From: Acidithiobacillus ferrooxidans ATCC 23270
Lineage (GTDB): Bacteria; Pseudomonadota; Gammaproteobacteria; Acidithiobacillales; Acidithiobacillaceae
Assembly: GCF_000021485.1 (NCBI RefSeq)
Contig: NC_011761.1
Location: forward strand, 774,001 to 838,000
Direction: 5' to 3'
Length of the DNA stretch: 64,000 nt
Of the stretch, positions 6,787 to 18,202 are shown one piece after another. A program made the position numbers and the translations under genes. How positions within the stretch are numbered: position 1 is the first letter of the stretch; each line of letters starts with the position of its first letter. Under the pieces are notes generated by a model. It did no database searches. It saw only the letters and a list, made by a program, of their open reading frames with translations, and was not told the DNA's origin.

Positions 6787-7377
6787 GTGATAAAGCGGCT
6801 GCCCAATTTCCTGACCATTCTGCGCATCGGGTTGGTGCCTATTTTCGTGGCGCTCTTCTACTGGGGGGGCGACATGCGCACTTTCGGCGCCACCGGAGTT
6901 TTTGCGGTGGCGGCGATTACCGATTGGGCCGATGGCTACCTCGCCCGGCGTTATCAAGGGGTATCACCTTTCGGTACCTTTCTCGACCCGGTTGCGGATA
7001 AGATCATGGTGGCTACCGCACTGGTGCTCATTGCCTCCTCCGGAGAGATGCCGGCACTCCTGGCCGGTATCCTGATCAGCATCATCGTCGGCCGGGAAAT
7101 TACCGTGTCAGCGTTGCGCGAGTGGATGGCCGAGGTGGGTGAGCGCAAAAAGGTGGCCGTCTCCTGGCTGGGTAAGGCGAAGGCGGCCACGCAGATGATT
7201 TCGATCCTGCTGCTGGTCTACGAGCGCCCGGTGCGGGGATTGTCCGCACGCACTCTGGGGACCGCTCTTCTGATCGTCGCGGCGGCGATGACACTCTGGA
7301 GTATGGTGGGCTACTTGCGCGCCGCCTGGCCCAGCCTGCAGGGCAATAGTGGGGCTCATCTTGACAGGGAGCGGTGA
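6787..7377 (+). CDS. pgsA: CDP-diacylglycerol--glycerol-3-phosphate 3-phosphatidyltransferase
   Basis: Integral membrane enzyme making phosphatidylglycerol phosphate, the committed step to phosphatidylglycerol and cardiolipin. The 196-aa protein has the CDP-alcohol phosphotransferase signature split over DWADGYLARR and GTFLDPVADK (DG..AR...G...D...D), the aspartates that bind Mg2+. Several hydrophobic segments follow. Start is GTG at 6787, 2 bp after the uvrC stop, giving IKRLPNFLTILRIGLVP, the usual N-terminus. Confidence 0.95.
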   Translation: MIKRLPNFLTILRIGLVPIFVALFYWGGDMRTFGATGVFAVAAITDWADGYLARRYQGVSPFGTFLDPVADKIMVATALVLIASSGEMPALLAGILISIIVGREITVSALREWMAEVGERKKVAVSWLGKAKAATQMISILLLVYERPVRGLSARTLGTALLIVAAAMTLWSMVGYLRAAWPSLQGNSGAHLDRER

Positions 7378-7399: not shown

Positions 7400-7474
7400 G
7401 CGGGAATAGCTCAGTGGTAGAGCACAACCTTGCCAAGGTTGGGGTCGCGAGTTCGAGCCTCGTTTCCCGCTCCA
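7400..7474 (+). tRNA. tRNA-Gly (GCC)
   Basis: Complete cloverleaf with acceptor stem GCGGGAA/TTCCCGC, D arm AGCTCAGTGGTAGAGC, anticodon loop TTGCCAA (GCC at 7432-7434), T arm with GTTCGAGCC, discriminator T and encoded CCA. Confidence 0.97.
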
Positions 7475-7514: not shown

Positions 7515-7588
7515 GGCTGGGTGGCAGAATGGTCATGCAGCGGCCTGCAAAGCCGTGGAAGCCGGTTCGATTCCGGCCCCAGCCTCCA
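7515..7588 (+). tRNA. tRNA-Cys (GCA)
   Basis: Complete cloverleaf: acceptor GGCTGGG/CCCAGCC, anticodon loop CTGCAAA (GCA at 7547-7549), T loop GGTTCGATTCC, encoded CCA. Confidence 0.97.
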
Positions 7589-7691: not shown

Positions 7692-8381
7692 ATGGGAAAT
7701 AGCAAGGAGGCGCTGCTGCTTCGCCTGCACCACACCCCGCTTTTTTCCGCATGGCCCAACGATATGATCGCGCCGCTGCTCGCCCAATCCCAGCCCCTGA
7801 CTCTGGAGTCGGGAGAGATTCTCTTTGCCGAGGGATCGCCAGCCCGATCCTTCTATTTCCTGGCGGTAGGACGAATTAATCTGATTGCGGCAGCGGCCAC
7901 GGGGCAGGAGAAAATTGTCGAAATCATCCAGCCCGATGATCTTTTCGCCGAGGCGGTGGCCTTTCTCGGGGGGCGCTATCCGGTGACGGCGCAGGCCGAT
8001 GCCACGACCACGGTACTGGAGATCCCGCTGGACCTTTTTGTCGCGACTCTGGAGCAGCGGCCATTGTTGATGCGCCAGATGCTGGCGCGCCTCAGTATGC
8101 GCCTGCATTTTCTGGTCAAGGAGCTGCGCCATCTGAGTGTGGAGTCGGCGGAGCAGCGCTTGGCCAGCTATCTGCTGGAGTTGTGTCCGGTAGTCAATAG
8201 CCCCGCTGCCATTGAGCTCCCCGCCAAGAAAGCGGCGGTCGCGGCGCGTTTGGGCTTGACGCCGGAAACGCTGTCGCGGGTGTTGTCCAGAATGCGTAAG
8301 GCAGGACTCATAGAAGTGGAACAACGGACGATCAGCATTCCCGACCCTCTTGCCTTACGGCGCTGGGCCGGCGGGCGCTGA
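7692..8381 (+). CDS. Crp/Fnr family regulator, DNR-like (no Fe-S cysteines)
   Basis: Cyclic-nucleotide-binding-like sensor domain (about residues 20-135, with GEILFAEGSPARSFYFLAVG), a dimer helix and a winged helix-turn-helix (AAVAARLGLTPETLSRVLSR). The recognition helix carries ExxSR (ETLSR), the motif FNR-type proteins use to read TTGAT half sites. Only one cysteine is present (LELCPV), so an FNR [4Fe-4S] cluster is impossible; this resembles DNR/NNR-type NO-responsive regulators. I chose ATG 7692 (GGAG 12 bp upstream); ATG 7641 would add 17 residues. An FNR-type box lies at 11739 before the globin gene. Confidence 0.85.
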   Translation: MGNSKEALLLRLHHTPLFSAWPNDMIAPLLAQSQPLTLESGEILFAEGSPARSFYFLAVGRINLIAAAATGQEKIVEIIQPDDLFAEAVAFLGGRYPVTAQADATTTVLEIPLDLFVATLEQRPLLMRQMLARLSMRLHFLVKELRHLSVESAEQRLASYLLELCPVVNSPAAIELPAKKAAVAARLGLTPETLSRVLSRMRKAGLIEVEQRTISIPDPLALRRWAGGR

Positions 8382-8409
8382 GGCGATGGCATTCGCGTCC
8401 TTTCAGTGT

Positions 8410-8802
8410 TCAGGCCGCATCGGGGGGCGATTTCACCAAGGTCTGTAAAAAATCGCGGAGCACCAACGCGCCGTTGTGTTCCTGGTCGTGGGCTGCATAC
8501 AGCAGAATCAGGGGCGAACCAGCGGCCTGGGTCAGGAGCGCGCGGGCAGTCTCCTGTTGCTCCGCCAGTTCCGCCAGATAACGTTTGCGGAATTCATCCC
8601 AGCGTACCGGATCATGGGCGAACCACTGACGCAGGGCGGTGCTGGGAGTGAGATCTTTGGGCCAGGCGTCCAGCGGGAGGTCGGCCTTGCGCAAGCCGCG
8701 GGGCCAGAGGCGCTCCGCCAGGACGTGATATCCTGCGGGGAGGGGATGCGCGTAAACGCGCCAGGTGGTGATGGCAATGCGCTGAGCGTGGTCCGGAGTC
8801 AT
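8410..8802 (-). CDS. DUF488 family protein
   Basis: 130-aa protein of the DUF488/YeaO group, whose function is unknown. Typical motifs are AERLWPRGLRKADLPLDAW and WPKDLTPSTALRQWF near the N-terminus, and LILLYAAHDQEHNGALVLRDFL at the C-terminus. I took ATG 8802 (MTPDHAQR); an in-frame ATG at 8823 would add seven residues. The gene lies about 45 bp downstream of the FAD oxidoreductase and may be the last gene of the globin cluster. Confidence 0.8.
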   Translation of the reverse strand: MTPDHAQRIAITTWRVYAHPLPAGYHVLAERLWPRGLRKADLPLDAWPKDLTPSTALRQWFAHDPVRWDEFRKRYLAELAEQQETARALLTQAAGSPLILLYAAHDQEHNGALVLRDFLQTLVKSPPDAA

Positions 8803-8845
8803 TTTATGTCCCTGCCCGTTCATTCGGGTCGCCTTCCTTCTGCTT

Positions 8846-10057
8846 TCACCAGTCTCCTATTCGCCCGCGCAATTCCTGGAGATGCACCACGGCTTTTTGC
8901 GCGATCAGGCTGCGGGCTGTCTTTACCTGGTCCCAGACGTTCCAGAGGAGTATGCCGTGGATCTGGTCATCCCGCAGATAGTACACTACGGCCTTGTCTC
9001 CGCCCGGCGAAATATCCGTATAGCAGTCCATGTCACTGCGGCATTCCCCGACGGCCTCGAAGCCGAATTCATAGATGTCGCTGTAGAACATGGATTGATG
9101 CTGAAAATGCACCTCTTTTCCGGCCATGCTAGAACCTGCGGCACGCCCGGTGGCTTCGGCATTATCCCAATGCTCCAGACGCAGAGGTGTGCCCCATACC
9201 GGATCCGGATAGGTGGCGAGGTCACCGGAAACCCATATCCGAGGGTCGCTGCTGCGCATCCCATCGTCCACGCGGACCCCGCCGGGTGCCATCACCAGAC
9301 CTGCGGCCTCCGCCAGGGCGGTCAGGGACAGCATGCCGATGCCATAGGTGATCCAGTCGCAGGAAATCTCCGCGCCGTCCGCGAAGCGGGATATGAGCTG
9401 GCCGGATTCGCTACGCAAGTCCTTGAAATGATGCTCGACATGGAGCTGGACGCCAGCCTCGCGATAGCGGGCGCTGACCTGCTCCATCAAAGGGGGTGGC
9501 AGGACGTGTGCCAACGGGCCTTTCCCGGACACGCAGTAGTGTACCGCAAGACCGGGCTGCAAAGAGAGCGCCACGGCCAGCTCCGCGCCGAGAAAACCAC
9601 CGCCGATCACCAACACGGTTCCACCCTCGGTCGCCCGCGTGTGCAAGCGCCGGTAATCCGCCAGCGAGCGTAAGGAAAATACTCTGTTTTCCAGGCCTGG
9701 CGGGGTGGGCAGCGGGCGGGGCTGTCCACCGGTGGCGAGCAGCAGTTTCTCATAGAAGAAGGTTTTTCCCGCCTTGGTTCCCACTACGCATCTCTCCGGA
9801 TCGAGGTTAATGACCGGATCTCCCAAAGCCAATGTGACACCCAGGGTTTCCCAGTCGGCCGGGCGCTTCAGGGTAATCTCTTCCTCTTTGTCTTTACCCA
9901 GCCATAAACCTTTGGAGAGAGGGGGGCGCTGATAGGGCGGGTCACTTTCTGCGCCCAGCATCAGCAGACTGCCCTGAGGGTCTTGCTTGCGGATGGCACT
10001 CGCCGCACTGGCGGCCGCGGCCCCCGCACCGACTATCAGATAGGTATAACGTTTCAT
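8846..10057 (-). CDS. NAD(P)H:FAD-dependent oxidoreductase, AIF/ferredoxin-reductase-like
   Basis: 403-aa pyridine nucleotide-disulphide oxidoreductase fold: FAD dinucleotide motif YLIVGAGAAAASAASAIR at the N-terminus, the PPYQRPPLSKGLW signature of the AIF/rubredoxin-ferredoxin reductase group (about residues 40-52), NAD(P)H motif VLVIGGGFLGAELAVAL near residue 148, and the second FAD motif IWVSGDLATYPDP. The C-terminal 100 residues form the reductase dimerisation domain. It should move electrons from NAD(P)H to a small redox partner. It lies 81 bp downstream of the 2Fe-2S reductase and the globin, suggesting a respiratory or NO/O2-linked role. Confidence 0.85.
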   Translation of the reverse strand: MKRYTYLIVGAGAAAASAASAIRKQDPQGSLLMLGAESDPPYQRPPLSKGLWLGKDKEEEITLKRPADWETLGVTLALGDPVINLDPERCVVGTKAGKTFFYEKLLLATGGQPRPLPTPPGLENRVFSLRSLADYRRLHTRATEGGTVLVIGGGFLGAELAVALSLQPGLAVHYCVSGKGPLAHVLPPPLMEQVSARYREAGVQLHVEHHFKDLRSESGQLISRFADGAEISCDWITYGIGMLSLTALAEAAGLVMAPGGVRVDDGMRSSDPRIWVSGDLATYPDPVWGTPLRLEHWDNAEATGRAAGSSMAGKEVHFQHQSMFYSDIYEFGFEAVGECRSDMDCYTDISPGGDKAVVYYLRDDQIHGILLWNVWDQVKTARSLIAQKAVVHLQELRGRIGDW

Positions 10058-10138: not shown

Positions 10139-11131
10139 TCATCCATTAGGTGCAAAAGCATCGAAGTGAATATGGTCATGCCGCACGTCATGGGAGAGCA
10201 GCAGGTCGATGGCGGCTTCTATCATGCCGGGGCTACCGCACAAATATACTTCATGATCCTTCCAGTGGCCGCTGGCGGCAACCGTGGGCAGGAGCCGGTG
10301 GGCGCCGGTCCAAGAGGCATCCTGCCTGTCGGAAAGTGTCGATGTGATGGTGATGTGCGGATATTGTTGTGACCATCTGGTGAGTTCTTCCAGATGATAA
10401 AAGTCGGCCCGTTTCCTGGCGCCGTAAAAAAGATGGATAGGCCGGGTCCGTCCCAAGGCGATACTTTCCTGGATCATCGCCTCAATGGGGGCCAGACCGG
10501 TTCCGGCGGCAATACAGAGCATATCACGGTCATTGTCCGGGCTTAGTGCGAATTCGCCCTGTGCAGCGCCCAGAATTAATGCATCGCCCCTTTGTGCGGT
10601 ATGAAAAAGCCACTGGCTGAATATGCCGCCGGGTAATTCACGGATATGGAAAACCAGTTCTCCGGTGGTACCCGGCGGCGTCGCCATGGAATAGGAACGC
10701 CACTGGTCTGGACGCCCCGGTATCGCGATGCGGGCGTATTGCCCGGTTCGGTAGGGGTAAGGCCGTTCCGGCCGCAGCCGTAACTCCAGCACATTCCAGG
10801 CCAGTGGTGTGAGCTGGGTAATCTCGGTCTTCCAGGTATCTTTCCGAACTACTTCGGCATGCAAACGCAGGTCACTACGTGGATACAGTTTACAGAGAAT
10901 GGCCATGCCAGCGGCACGTTCCGTGGGTAAGAGCAGCAGCGGCATAAAAGGCCCCTGTTCGCTGGCGCCGGACAAAATGGTGCCCTTGCAATCACCACAG
11001 GAACCACTGGCACAGCCATGTTTGATGGAAATTCCGTGTTGTTTCGCCGCTTCGACAATGTTTTGGTGCTCATCCGCCATAAAACGGATGCCGGATGGCT
11101 CCAGACAGATTTCATATTCCATAACGGGCAT
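10139..11131 (-). CDS. 2Fe-2S ferredoxin / FAD-NAD(P)H reductase fusion
   Basis: N-terminal plant-type [2Fe-2S] domain with the ligand pattern CASGSCGDCKG (residues about 35-45) and a later cysteine in MAILCKLYP, followed by an FAD-binding domain (RSYSMATPP) and an NAD(P)H domain (MLCIAAGTGLAPIEAMI, then YLCGSPGMIEA). This order is that of oxygenase reductases and of CDP-6-deoxy-glucoseen reductase. Start ATG 11131 (MPVMEYEI) is preferred; ATG 11122 is possible, and a TTG touching the globin stop would add 18 unrelated residues. Next to the globin it may act as a haem reductase. Confidence 0.85.
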   Translation of the reverse strand: MPVMEYEICLEPSGIRFMADEHQNIVEAAKQHGISIKHGCASGSCGDCKGTILSGASEQGPFMPLLLLPTERAAGMAILCKLYPRSDLRLHAEVVRKDTWKTEITQLTPLAWNVLELRLRPERPYPYRTGQYARIAIPGRPDQWRSYSMATPPGTTGELVFHIRELPGGIFSQWLFHTAQRGDALILGAAQGEFALSPDNDRDMLCIAAGTGLAPIEAMIQESIALGRTRPIHLFYGARKRADFYHLEELTRWSQQYPHITITSTLSDRQDASWTGAHRLLPTVAASGHWKDHEVYLCGSPGMIEAAIDLLLSHDVRHDHIHFDAFAPNG

Positions 11132-11185: not shown

Positions 11186-11647
11186 TCAGACGGCGGGAGG
11201 TACGTCGTCGATGGTCACCGGGACGAAGCGGGAAGGGGCCATGGCCTCGTAGGCTGCCTCGATGCAAACGGTGGAGGCCAGGTTATAAGCCTCGATCCAG
11301 GATTCCGCCATTTCCTGCGTCCAGGCCGCACCCAGGAAATGCTTCAGGGTATTGAGCAGGCTTTTGCCGACAATGGGGTAATGTTCCGGACGGGTATCGT
11401 ATTTGATGTGCCCGATACCGAGTTCTTTCAAATAAGGAACCAGCACTTCCATGGTGTCGATATTGGTGGCGATCAGAATGACGGAATTGAAGAGGCGCAC
11501 CCGCTGCTCAGACATGTCCCCTGGAAACATTTTCCGCACTTCAGGAAAATGGGTGAACATGTAGTTATAAAAATGCTCGGCAACCTGAACGCCTAAGTCC
11601 TTAACAGCGGCGCCGCTGGATTGGATGAGTTGGATATTGATAGCCAT
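11186..11647 (-). CDS. Single-domain globin (Vitreoscilla haemoglobin type)
   Basis: 153-aa globin. B-helix FYNYMF provides the B10 tyrosine; the EF/F region GIGHIKYDTRPEHYPIVG holds the proximal histidine and the HYPIVG block typical of bacterial haemoglobins and flavohaemoglobin haem domains. No flavin domain is attached, but the next gene encodes a separate 2Fe-2S/FAD reductase. Likely roles are NO dioxygenation or O2 supply in microaerobic conditions. GAAGGAG lies 9 bp upstream of the ATG. An FNR-type box at 11739-11752 sits upstream. Confidence 0.9.
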   Translation of the reverse strand: MAINIQLIQSSGAAVKDLGVQVAEHFYNYMFTHFPEVRKMFPGDMSEQRVRLFNSVILIATNIDTMEVLVPYLKELGIGHIKYDTRPEHYPIVGKSLLNTLKHFLGAAWTQEMAESWIEAYNLASTVCIEAAYEAMAPSRFVPVTIDDVPPAV

Positions 11648-11710
11648 CTGTTGTTGCTCCTTCCGGTTGAACCATGGATTTTAACTTCAGAAAAACGCCC
11701 TACGTTTTGC

Positions 11711-11752
11711 AGTTTATCGGGTTGCCGGTGCGCATTCCTTGATTTCGGTCAA
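11711..11752 (-). promoter_or_regulatory. FNR/DNR-type class II promoter of the globin cluster
   Basis: On the plus strand 11739-11752 reads TTGAT-TTCG-GTCAA, one mismatch from TTGAT-N4-ATCAA. Read on the minus strand toward the globin, a -10-like TAAACT lies at 11716-11711. That would put the start site near 11704 and the box centre at -41.5, the standard spacing for FNR-type class II activation. The spacing is counted from the sequence; use of the promoter is inferred. Confidence 0.6.
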
Positions 11753-11773
11753 GTTTGGCTGGGTCACGCCGCT

Positions 11774-12943
11774 CTACGCGTTATCGCGGATAACGGCGGC
11801 GGCGCGTTGCCGGGCACGCCGCAACTCTCCATTGTATATATGGGTTTGATAGCCTCGTATCGGCGTGGTGGTGAGCGGCTTGAGCACAGAATGCTTTTGT
11901 GAGCGCGTCCAGTGAATCCCCGCAACCATGGAGAGTCCGGGCCGCAGTGGATATTGGGCGAGTTCTGCGGCGGATAATGCGATACGTATCGGCACCCGTT
12001 CGACGATATGGATGTAATTTCCGGTGGCATTCTCCGGCGGCAGGATGCCGAAGGCACTACCTGCACCCGGCAATAGTCCCAGGACTTCGCCGTGATAACG
12101 AACATCGCCGCCATAGTAATCACTGGTCAATTGAACGCATTGTCCGGGGTGGACATGCCGCATGGCGGTTTCTTTCACGTTGGCTACGACCCACAAATCA
12201 TTGAGGGGCACCACGGAAAACAGGCGCTGATCTGGGTGCACCATCAGTCCGGGGTAGACGGTGCGCTCCGCGACATAACCCGATACCGGTGCACGGACAA
12301 CTCGGCGTTGCCATTGAATATCGGCCTGTTCAAACTGCGCCGCGGCCTGGCGCACGAGGGGGTTCGTTTGCAGGGTGGTGCCCGCTATGATGGCTTGCGT
12401 GCCTTTTAGCGCCGCTTGGGCCGCCGCTACCTGTGCTGTCGCAGCAGCAATTTCGTTTTGCGTGTCTTCCAGGCGGATGGCGGAAACAGCGCCACTCGGC
12501 AGGGACTGCTTATAGCGGATAAAATCGGCGTTTAATTTGCGGAGTTCGGCGTTTTTGGCACTGACGGTCTGTTGCAGCGCGGTGACCTTGGCGAAATCCC
12601 TGCGTACCTGCCTGACCGTCGCTGCCAGATGCGCCCCTGCTTGCTGTAGGGCGATCTGCGAACGATGGGCCTGAAGGGTAGCCATTACCTGTCCGGCGCG
12701 GACGAATTCGGTATTTTCTACGAGTACCCTGCTGATGGTACCGGCCGTCTGGCTATCCACCGGCGTAATATTGCCGGAGACGTAGGCATCGTTGGTTTCT
12801 ATCCAGTACTGCCCCCGCAAAAACCACCACGCGGCCCATATCAATCCGGCAAGCACAAAAATGAGGGTAACGAGCACCAGCAGCCGGGTGCGTTTTTCCG
12901 GTTGGATGGGAGAACCCGAATGTTCGGGCTTCTGCATGCTCAT
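11774..12943 (-). CDS. EmrA/HlyD-type membrane fusion protein
   Basis: 389-aa periplasmic adaptor of a drug efflux pump. A cytoplasmic N-terminus is followed by one membrane anchor (about residues 20-41, LLVLVTLIFVLAGLIWAAWW), the lipoyl half-motif NDAYVSGNITPVDSQTAGTI, a long alpha-helical hairpin and a beta-barrel domain. It starts inside the stop of the outer-membrane factor (4-bp ATGA overlap) and is the third gene of the MFS-OMF-MFP operon. Confidence 0.92.
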   Translation of the reverse strand: MSMQKPEHSGSPIQPEKRTRLLVLVTLIFVLAGLIWAAWWFLRGQYWIETNDAYVSGNITPVDSQTAGTISRVLVENTEFVRAGQVMATLQAHRSQIALQQAGAHLAATVRQVRRDFAKVTALQQTVSAKNAELRKLNADFIRYKQSLPSGAVSAIRLEDTQNEIAAATAQVAAAQAALKGTQAIIAGTTLQTNPLVRQAAAQFEQADIQWQRRVVRAPVSGYVAERTVYPGLMVHPDQRLFSVVPLNDLWVVANVKETAMRHVHPGQCVQLTSDYYGGDVRYHGEVLGLLPGAGSAFGILPPENATGNYIHIVERVPIRIALSAAELAQYPLRPGLSMVAGIHWTRSQKHSVLKPLTTTPIRGYQTHIYNGELRRARQRAAAVIRDNA

Positions 12944-17209: not shown

Positions 17210-17271
17210 AGTAACTCCTTGATTTGCCGCGTGTGATCGGCCCTAAAGCCATTTTTGCCCGGCGCAGTTTA

Positions 17272-17496
17272 TCACGGCTGCGCTGTAAAAGGCTCCGTAG
17301 CGGGTTGGTCTTGTGCGGTGCGCTGGAAGGTGGCCGTTTGCGGAATCTGCTGAAGTACCACAGACTCCATAGAGGATGTCGGACCAGGCTGATAACCTTT
17401 GTCCTGATGTCCCAGCCAGAGGCCAATCAGCGCGCCAAAGGCCAGAATGCCCGCCGTCTTGGGCCGGAACTGCGATGCGGAATGATGGGGTGCCAT
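17272..17496 (-). CDS. Small single-pass membrane protein
   Basis: 74 aa, with one hydrophobic segment (AGILAFGALIGLWLG, about residues 15-29) after a short basic N-terminus and a polar C-terminal tail rich in Gln, Pro and Thr. A near-perfect ribosome-binding site (AAGGAGG, six bases from the ATG) supports it as a real gene. It may be cotranscribed with the 88-aa gene downstream. No family recognised. Confidence 0.55.
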   Translation of the reverse strand: MAPHHSASQFRPKTAGILAFGALIGLWLGHQDKGYQPGPTSSMESVVLQQIPQTATFQRTAQDQPATEPFTAQP

Positions 17497-17564
17497 GTGA
17501 TGCCTCCTTCGGCATTGACTGTATAAAAATACAGTACACGCTGAAGGGACTCATTGCAAGTGCG

Positions 17565-18202
17565 ATGGTGGTGGGTGTGGAGTCGATTCACCCCCAAGCG
17601 TTGCTGGCCCAGGTGTTGGAACGGGCCAATCTGCAACGCGCATTGAAGCAAGTGCGCCAGAACAAAGGCGCGCCGGGCATTGACGGCATGAGCGTCGATG
17701 AATTACCGGACTACCTCCGCCACCACTGGCCGGAAATTCGCGCGCAATTGGAGGCAGGCCATAGAACCGCAAGTTTCTGGGCTTCACGGTCAGCCGCAAC
17801 GGAGCTAGGCTGAAGGTGGCCGACAAGGCCATCGCAAAGCTGAAGAACCGGGTGCGGGAACTGACCCGTCGTACGCGAGGCAACAACATTGGCGTTATCG
17901 TGGCAGATCTGAGGAAAGTCCTGCTTGGTTGGAAAGCGTATTTCGGCATTGCCGAGGTACTGAGCCCTCTGCGCGACATCGACAAGTGGGTACGACGCAA
18001 GTTACGTTACTATCTCTGGAAACAATGGGGGCCGGCGGGCTACAGGGAACTACGCAAGCGCGGCGTGTCTGTGCGCGAAGCGTGGAATACCAGTAAGTCG
18101 GCACACGGTCCATGGCGGCCGTCGAAGACGCCGGCATTGGCTATTGCGCTACCATGGCGCTACCTCAATAACTTGGGACTACCCAGCCTTGCGGCCCGGT
18201 AA
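17565..18202 (+). pseudogene. Group II intron reverse transcriptase/maturase, internally deleted
   Basis: The first about 65 codons encode the N-terminus of a group II intron RT (LLAQVLERANLQRALKQVRQ, NKGAPGIDGMSVDEL). Near 17760 the reading jumps to the far C-terminus in another frame: RKFLGFTVSRNGARLKVADK and the maturase/X domain (VLLGWKAYFG, LRYYLWKQWGP, ALPWRYLNNLGLPSLAAR). The whole catalytic core including YxDD is missing, so the protein is dead. The C-terminal region resembles group IIC-attC intron enzymes. The 5' intron RNA is also absent, because only about 70 bp separate the fragment from the neighbouring gene. Confidence 0.85.

Follow-up and report, generated by a model that had tools for sequence, protein, structure and literature searches.

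A conserved DNR-type box at a fixed distance from the -10 element in front of the globin operon of Acidithiobacillus ferrooxidans suggests class II control, probably by nitric oxide

A 64,000-nucleotide stretch of the chromosome of Acidithiobacillus ferrooxidans ATCC 23270 (NC_011761.1, positions 774,001 to 838,000 of the forward strand; hereafter the window) holds a putative operon headed by a single-domain globin gene, and raises the question of which regulator, responding to which signal, controls it. An earlier reading made from the letters of the DNA (hereafter the sequence-only reading) had pointed to an FNR-type box in front of the globin gene, and this was confirmed: TTGATTTCGGTCAA, on the plus strand at 11739-11752, is the sole exact TTGATN4GTCAA in the window, where 0.11 would be expected. 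On the globin strand the box reads TTGACCGAAATCAA (minus, 11752-11739), with neighbouring bases C-TTGACCGAAATCAA-GGA. The box is real, and we consider it probable that it belongs to a class II, activator-dependent promoter under the control of a DNR-like protein, with nitric oxide (NO) as the likely signal.

The hexamer TAAACT (11716-11711, minus strand) sits 22 base pairs (bp) 3' of TTGACCGAAATCAA. Set at -12 to -7, it gives a predicted transcription start (+1) at 11704, a box centre at -41.5 and a leader of 57 bases to the globin ATG. This +1 was predicted from the -10 element only, and a value of -41.5 taken from a single promoter is circular; most of the circularity was removed by comparison, because related promoters keep the same 22-bp spacing. 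A scan of 11600-11850 for sigma-70 -35/-10 pairs returned none that reached threshold, as expected for an activator-dependent promoter.

Conservation was assessed on the 200 bp upstream of globin genes from the family and the order, leaving out four tblastn rows, three of one truncated globin (genome G020) and one, of G030, with a single base upstream. Relatives of the globin in named records came mostly from Acidithiobacillus. Exact TTGAYN4RTCAA was present in 32 of 33 distinct upstream regions. Twenty-one promoters were classed as flank-diverged, their upstream regions sharing less than 85% identity across the box plus 30 bp to either side, and in all of them TTGA, TCAA, one box-adjacent G and two letters of the -10 element are invariant. 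The bases that follow TCAA are G (20/21), G (21/21) and A (20/21), most flanking columns being near random; the fifth box position is occupied by C and not by T in 18 promoters, and the base preceding the box agrees with the C of the DNR consensus in 17. The two invariant -10 letters are an A and a T at positions 2 and 6 of the hexamer 22 bp from the box. At this spacing xA...T occurs in 21/21 promoters and TA...T in 15/21; at the other spacings scanned, from 8 to 44, xA...T was found in at most 4/21 each. This fixed spacing supports the class II FNR/DNR geometry, centred at -41.5, that had been proposed: a predicted geometry that now comes from comparison across promoters and would no longer be circular. 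By sequence, the promoter has the features of the FNR-type class II, namely a box with a predicted centre near -41.5, a -10 element and no recognisable -35.

The sequence-only reading had placed an FNR-like regulator with an ETLSR helix 3.4 kb away. This was borne out by a gene, here called regulator A, that lies 3.36 kb from the box, is convergent with the globin operon and encodes a PETLSR helix. Like DNR, its product combines a cNMP-binding domain with HTH_Crp_2, and an E-T-x-S-R helix goes together with a site resembling CTTGATnnnnATCAAG. Its best match of solved structure is DNR (3dkw, E 6e-31, with two other chains at 9e-31 and 1e-30, among 73 matched sequences). The description of this protein as cysteine-free has to be corrected: it has one cysteine, residue 165, and none at the N-terminus, so that it lacks the iron-sulfur (Fe-S) cysteine cluster of an Fe-S FNR. 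Four genes of the genome passed the HTH_Crp_2 cut-off. One is an FNR-like gene at 244 kb, and two are DNR-like, namely regulator A, whose helix reads E-T-L-S-R, and its paralogue C next to hcp, with E-T-F-S-R; these two share 56% identity. The helix E-T-[LF]-S-R was read in 42 of 43 aligned rows, some genes giving two rows, and the 43rd ends before the helix. An N-terminal pair of histidines shared with DNR was considered as a clue to haem binding and dropped, being present in only 2/43 related rows; those rows that reach the N-terminus mostly read R-Q, R-E or R-R at this position, where many rows are cut. A tree of 34 rows placed the C type, represented by three of them, outside a 23-row group of A and its counterparts from other genera (99/99). 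The A/C split therefore looks older than a recent duplication, with long outgroup branches that leave the root unsure. In one relative (G026), a second DNR-like copy (8391-9013) reads in two frames, suggesting a frameshift.

Co-occurrence was examined in 29 genomes of the family. Three of them (G015, G023 and G027) had no sites, no globin and no intact DNR-like gene, and 25 of the 26 globin-bearing genomes had a DNR-like gene. The FNR orthologue was missing from 10/29, all ten with globin, and the box was exact in nine of these, the nine with a readable upstream region; it was present in 16 of the 26 globin-bearing genomes and in all three globin-less ones, once in part. Both orthologues were called at E<1e-40, a cut chosen after the tables had been seen; genomes whose DNR gene is cut at contig ends (G010, G013 and G014) were counted as having it, and G015, which has only fragments of DNR and FNR, was scored as lacking the former and having the latter. 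Fisher tests, in which relatedness is ignored, gave p=0.001 for globin with DNR and p=0.53 for globin with FNR. Because sites, globin and an intact DNR-like gene are missing together, and because FNR does not track the box, the nearby DNR-like protein is likely the cognate regulator. The arrangement of the loci differs by lineage: in 13 loci of the window's genus (window included) the regulator is convergent and downstream, and in 10 globin loci of other genera it is divergent with the box in between, one of these regulators reading in two frames. These divergent pairs and the structural match to DNR also speak for the DNR-like protein as the cognate regulator. The sequence-only reading had left the choice between NO and oxygen control open; since FNR is absent from ten globin-bearing genomes, the DNR branch is favoured, and NO is likely to be the signal rather than oxygen.

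In the single chromosome that holds the window (2,982,397 bases), TTGAYN4RTCAA occurs at 13 sites, against two for the reversed pattern; since several of the 13 fall inside long open reading frames (ORFs), the motif alone was judged a weak guide to the regulon. The full pattern TTGAYN4RTCAAGG-N20-TANNNT matched without mismatch at two places, the globin and hcp promoters, and both sites adjoin a DNR-like regulator gene. With the first -10 base left free, this pattern gave 58 exact matches in 26 of the 29 family genomes and 0 when reversed. By position, 34 of the 58 are globin promoters. The remaining 24 precede hcp (8), hemerythrin-domain genes (6), DUF2249 genes (3), thioredoxin genes (2) and five others: a CCG (cysteine-rich) protein, a nitronate monooxygenase, a CCG-like ORF recognised by eye and without a Pfam match, a site with no ORF, and one site left unassigned. 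The genes behind these 24 sites were named by Pfam on representatives (8/10 proteins matched a family) and otherwise by ORF or sequence likeness. DUF2249 is a family that we take to be COG4309. COG4309 has been placed in NO-responsive regulons (PMC1274295). As the predicted targets in the family are largely hcp, hemerythrin and DUF2249 genes, a wider NO-linked regulon is suggested.

According to the mechanism that we favour, the box would serve as operator at a sigma-70 promoter of class II that depends on an activator and drives the globin gene, a [2Fe-2S]/flavin adenine dinucleotide (FAD) reductase gene, a gene for a reductase linked to nicotinamide adenine dinucleotide (NAD) and a DUF488 gene. 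A dimer of regulator A, or of its hcp-side paralogue, would bind both half-sites through the ETLSR helix, centred at -41.5, and would recruit RNA polymerase to a promoter with a -10 element and no recognisable -35. The signal would most likely be NO or a related reactive nitrogen species, and the operon products would most likely oxidise NO with NAD(P)H electrons fed in by the two reductases. The residues of NO dioxygenases are the haem His, the distal Tyr and Gln and the proximal Tyr; H80, Y27, Q48 and Y90 are invariant in 29/29 distinct globins. The globin matches the model of flavohaemoglobin Hmp over residues 4-131. The reductase next to it matches the C-terminal half of this model, and both scores are far under the whole-protein cut-off. 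Unlike in Hmp, globin and reductase are encoded here by separate genes and not fused, a [2Fe-2S] domain is added, and, by alignment to Vitreoscilla haemoglobin, one Glu is replaced by Ala.

The same operator and DNR-like regulator could serve another purpose, the regulator sensing low O2, sulfide or some other haem ligand and the globin serving that stress. The difference between this globin and Vitreoscilla haemoglobin at one aligned Glu would be in line with such a role; set against it are the largely NO-linked predicted targets in the family and the NnrS gene that follows hcp on a plasmid copy, and we regard it as unlikely. Less probable still is that the box is bound by the Fe-S FNR known from the literature as AFE_0270, with the operon under oxygen control. 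A. ferrooxidans FNR drives an E. coli FNR promoter (PMC6659574), and the FNR consensus given in the literature is TTGAT-N4-ATCAA. The FNR-like gene of this genome at 244 kb, which has N-terminal cysteines and is most likely AFE_0270 (PMC6659574), has E..SR in its helix as well, and an exact TTGAYN4RTCAA (243960-243973) lies just downstream of it. Control by FNR was nevertheless set aside because of the ten globin-bearing genomes that lack the orthologue, while all three globin-less genomes retain it, one in part. The flanks of the box also argue against it: those at the globin are C...G, as in the DNR consensus CTTGATnnnnATCAAG, and those of the sites at the FNR-like gene and at a molybdopterin oxidoreductase-like gene are A...A and A...T. 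The latter site (1930074-1930087, with the A/T flanks) is an FNR-type box just upstream of that gene, which was named by eye; it and the box at 243960-243973 may be true FNR targets. A chance box, with the globin expressed from another promoter, is extremely improbable: ten fixed bases can arise by chance, 11 of 100 shuffled windows held an exact TTGATN4GTCAA, and TTGATN4ATCAA with at most one mismatch gave 2 matches in the window for 1.51 expected, but conservation in 32/33 upstream regions and a spacing fixed in 21/21 promoters contradict it.

Several observations weigh against control of the globin operon by a DNR-like, NO-responsive activator. Window statistics alone are weak, as the one-mismatch count just given illustrates, and in the genome the full pattern with up to two mismatches gave 9 matches against 4 for the reversed pattern, only the exact ones standing out. 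The one upstream region without the box is that of G030, a genome that shares the order but not the family, and the base preceding the box is A in 4/21 promoters. Nine fetched globin loci had no regulator within the stretch retrieved, four of them being additional copies, of which G004 has two and G011 and G013 have one apiece, and the others coming from G001, G006, G017, G028 and G030; in G028, a genome that is 61% complete, globin and box are present and no regulator was matched. Regulators A and C are alike in helix class, and on plasmids the globin is paired with the hcp-type regulator, so that either of the two may be the acting paralogue. In the globin itself, Ala132 is aligned where Vitreoscilla haemoglobin has Glu, in 28/28 rows with a letter. 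The Glu of the proximal triad is at position H23; a nearby Glu could still serve in place of Ala132, and NO dioxygenation by the globin is likely, if not assured. Lastly, the rise of the globin in biofilms, considered below, was explained mainly by the handling of oxygen and reactive oxygen species, NO dioxygenase activity also being mentioned (PMC6450195).

The core of this finding (site, regulator and operon) is already in print. Rodionov et al. (2005; PMC1274295) described in the same species the cgb-COG0543-COG0446 operon with a candidate DNR site in front and a clustered dnr paralogue, and a second dnr paralogue divergent from hcp-COG0543; in one place their discussion names HcpR, not DNR, for the cgb gene. 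They called the paralogues recently duplicated, whereas our tree puts the A/C split deeper. Beyond what that account gives for this locus, the present analysis derives the -41.5 geometry from comparison, argues against FNR, proposes a larger regulon linked to NO, describes copies on plasmids and makes a connection with the biofilm globin probable; a computational prediction of 2005 is thereby turned into a sharply conserved promoter architecture. No experimental work on the globin promoter was found in the open-licence literature searched, most of which was judged by title.

DNR of Pseudomonas aeruginosa and P. stutzeri belongs to the same CRP/FNR family and provides the best solved match and the site consensus CTTGATnnnnATCAAG. 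It serves nir/nor/nos denitrification in Pseudomonas, whereas the predicted targets in A. ferrooxidans are globin and hcp. In P. aeruginosa, NO is reported to activate Dnr through haem (PMC12403760). NssR-Cgb of Campylobacter jejuni offers a parallel in that a CRP/FNR-family activator likewise controls a single-domain, NO-protective globin; its site, given as TTAACnnnnGTTAA (PMC1274295), is unlike the TTGAY..RTCAA found here.

Related gene sets are carried on plasmids. On p1 of A. ferrooxidans YNTRS-40 (NZ_CP040512.1, about 7.4-27.4 kb), an NO-linked set lies within about 20 kb and includes, with other genes between, efflux genes, globin, reductase, thioredoxin, hemerythrins, DUF2249, DUF488, a C-type regulator, hcp, reductase and NnrS. 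The p1 regulator is 98% identical to the C type. The class II pattern precedes globin and hcp on p1; at the box before DUF2249, the -10 letters are missing at 22 bp. Globin and regulator occur together on three A. ferrooxidans plasmids, and pTF5 carries the regulator-hcp part.

A globin was the most induced protein of A. ferrooxidans pyrite biofilms, and AFE_0859 was also increased in the biofilm cells (PMC6450195). The window globin is probably that protein. The window genes would correspond to AFE_0861 and AFE_0859 because no second globin of this kind was matched in the genome, because a pyridine nucleotide-disulfide oxidoreductase lies two genes along, and because of the proportion of locus tags: if AFE_0270 is the 244-kb gene, the tag expected by simple proportion at 785 kb is about AFE_0868. 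We tentatively raise the possibility, doubtful as it is, that in these acidophiles denitrification has given way, within a small DNR regulon, to a portable, partly plasmid-borne NO-defence cassette (globin, Hcp, hemerythrin, DUF2249 and NnrS), and that this regulon drives the biofilm induction of the globin through the box, in response to NO or to some other molecule that the DNR-like sensor binds and not to oxygen radicals. This would provide a cause, open to test, for the strongest protein change reported from pyrite biofilms of A. ferrooxidans, a matter of relevance to bioleaching and acid mine drainage.

The features discussed are collected in Table 1. The globin gene and the two reductase genes for which the sequence-only reading had suggested common control were found downstream of the box, and the putative operon also includes the DUF488 gene.

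Table 1. Coordinates, within the window, of the promoter elements and genes of the globin locus
Feature	Position	Strand	Remarks
DNR/FNR-type box TTGACCGAAATCAA, putative operator of the globin operon	11739..11752	-	TTGAYN4RTCAA exact in 32/33 distinct globin upstream regions
-10 hexamer TAAACT	11711..11716	-	22 bp downstream of the box; xA...T at this spacing in 21/21 flank-diverged promoters
Predicted transcription start (+1)	11704	-	From the -10 element; 57-base leader
DNR-like CRP/FNR-family regulator (paralogue A)	7692..8381	+	PETLSR recognition helix, one Cys
Single-domain globin gene (probably AFE_0861, by inference)	11186..11647	-	
[2Fe-2S]/FAD/NAD reductase gene, MmoC/BenC-like	10139..11122	-	Start codon chosen by eye
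Pyridine nucleotide-disulfide oxidoreductase gene, ferredoxin reductase-like (probably AFE_0859, by inference)	8846..10057	-	
DUF488 protein gene, last of the putative operon	8410..8823	-	

Some minor observations were made on these genes and their surroundings. The globin occurs three times in G030, every copy aligning with a single internal TGA, and two of the three lie at the ends of contigs. In the window, two tRNA genes (7400-7471 and 7515-7585) lie between regulator A and a gene ending at 7377, and ORFs at 17224-18202 look, by eye, like pieces of a broken group II intron reverse transcriptase/maturase.
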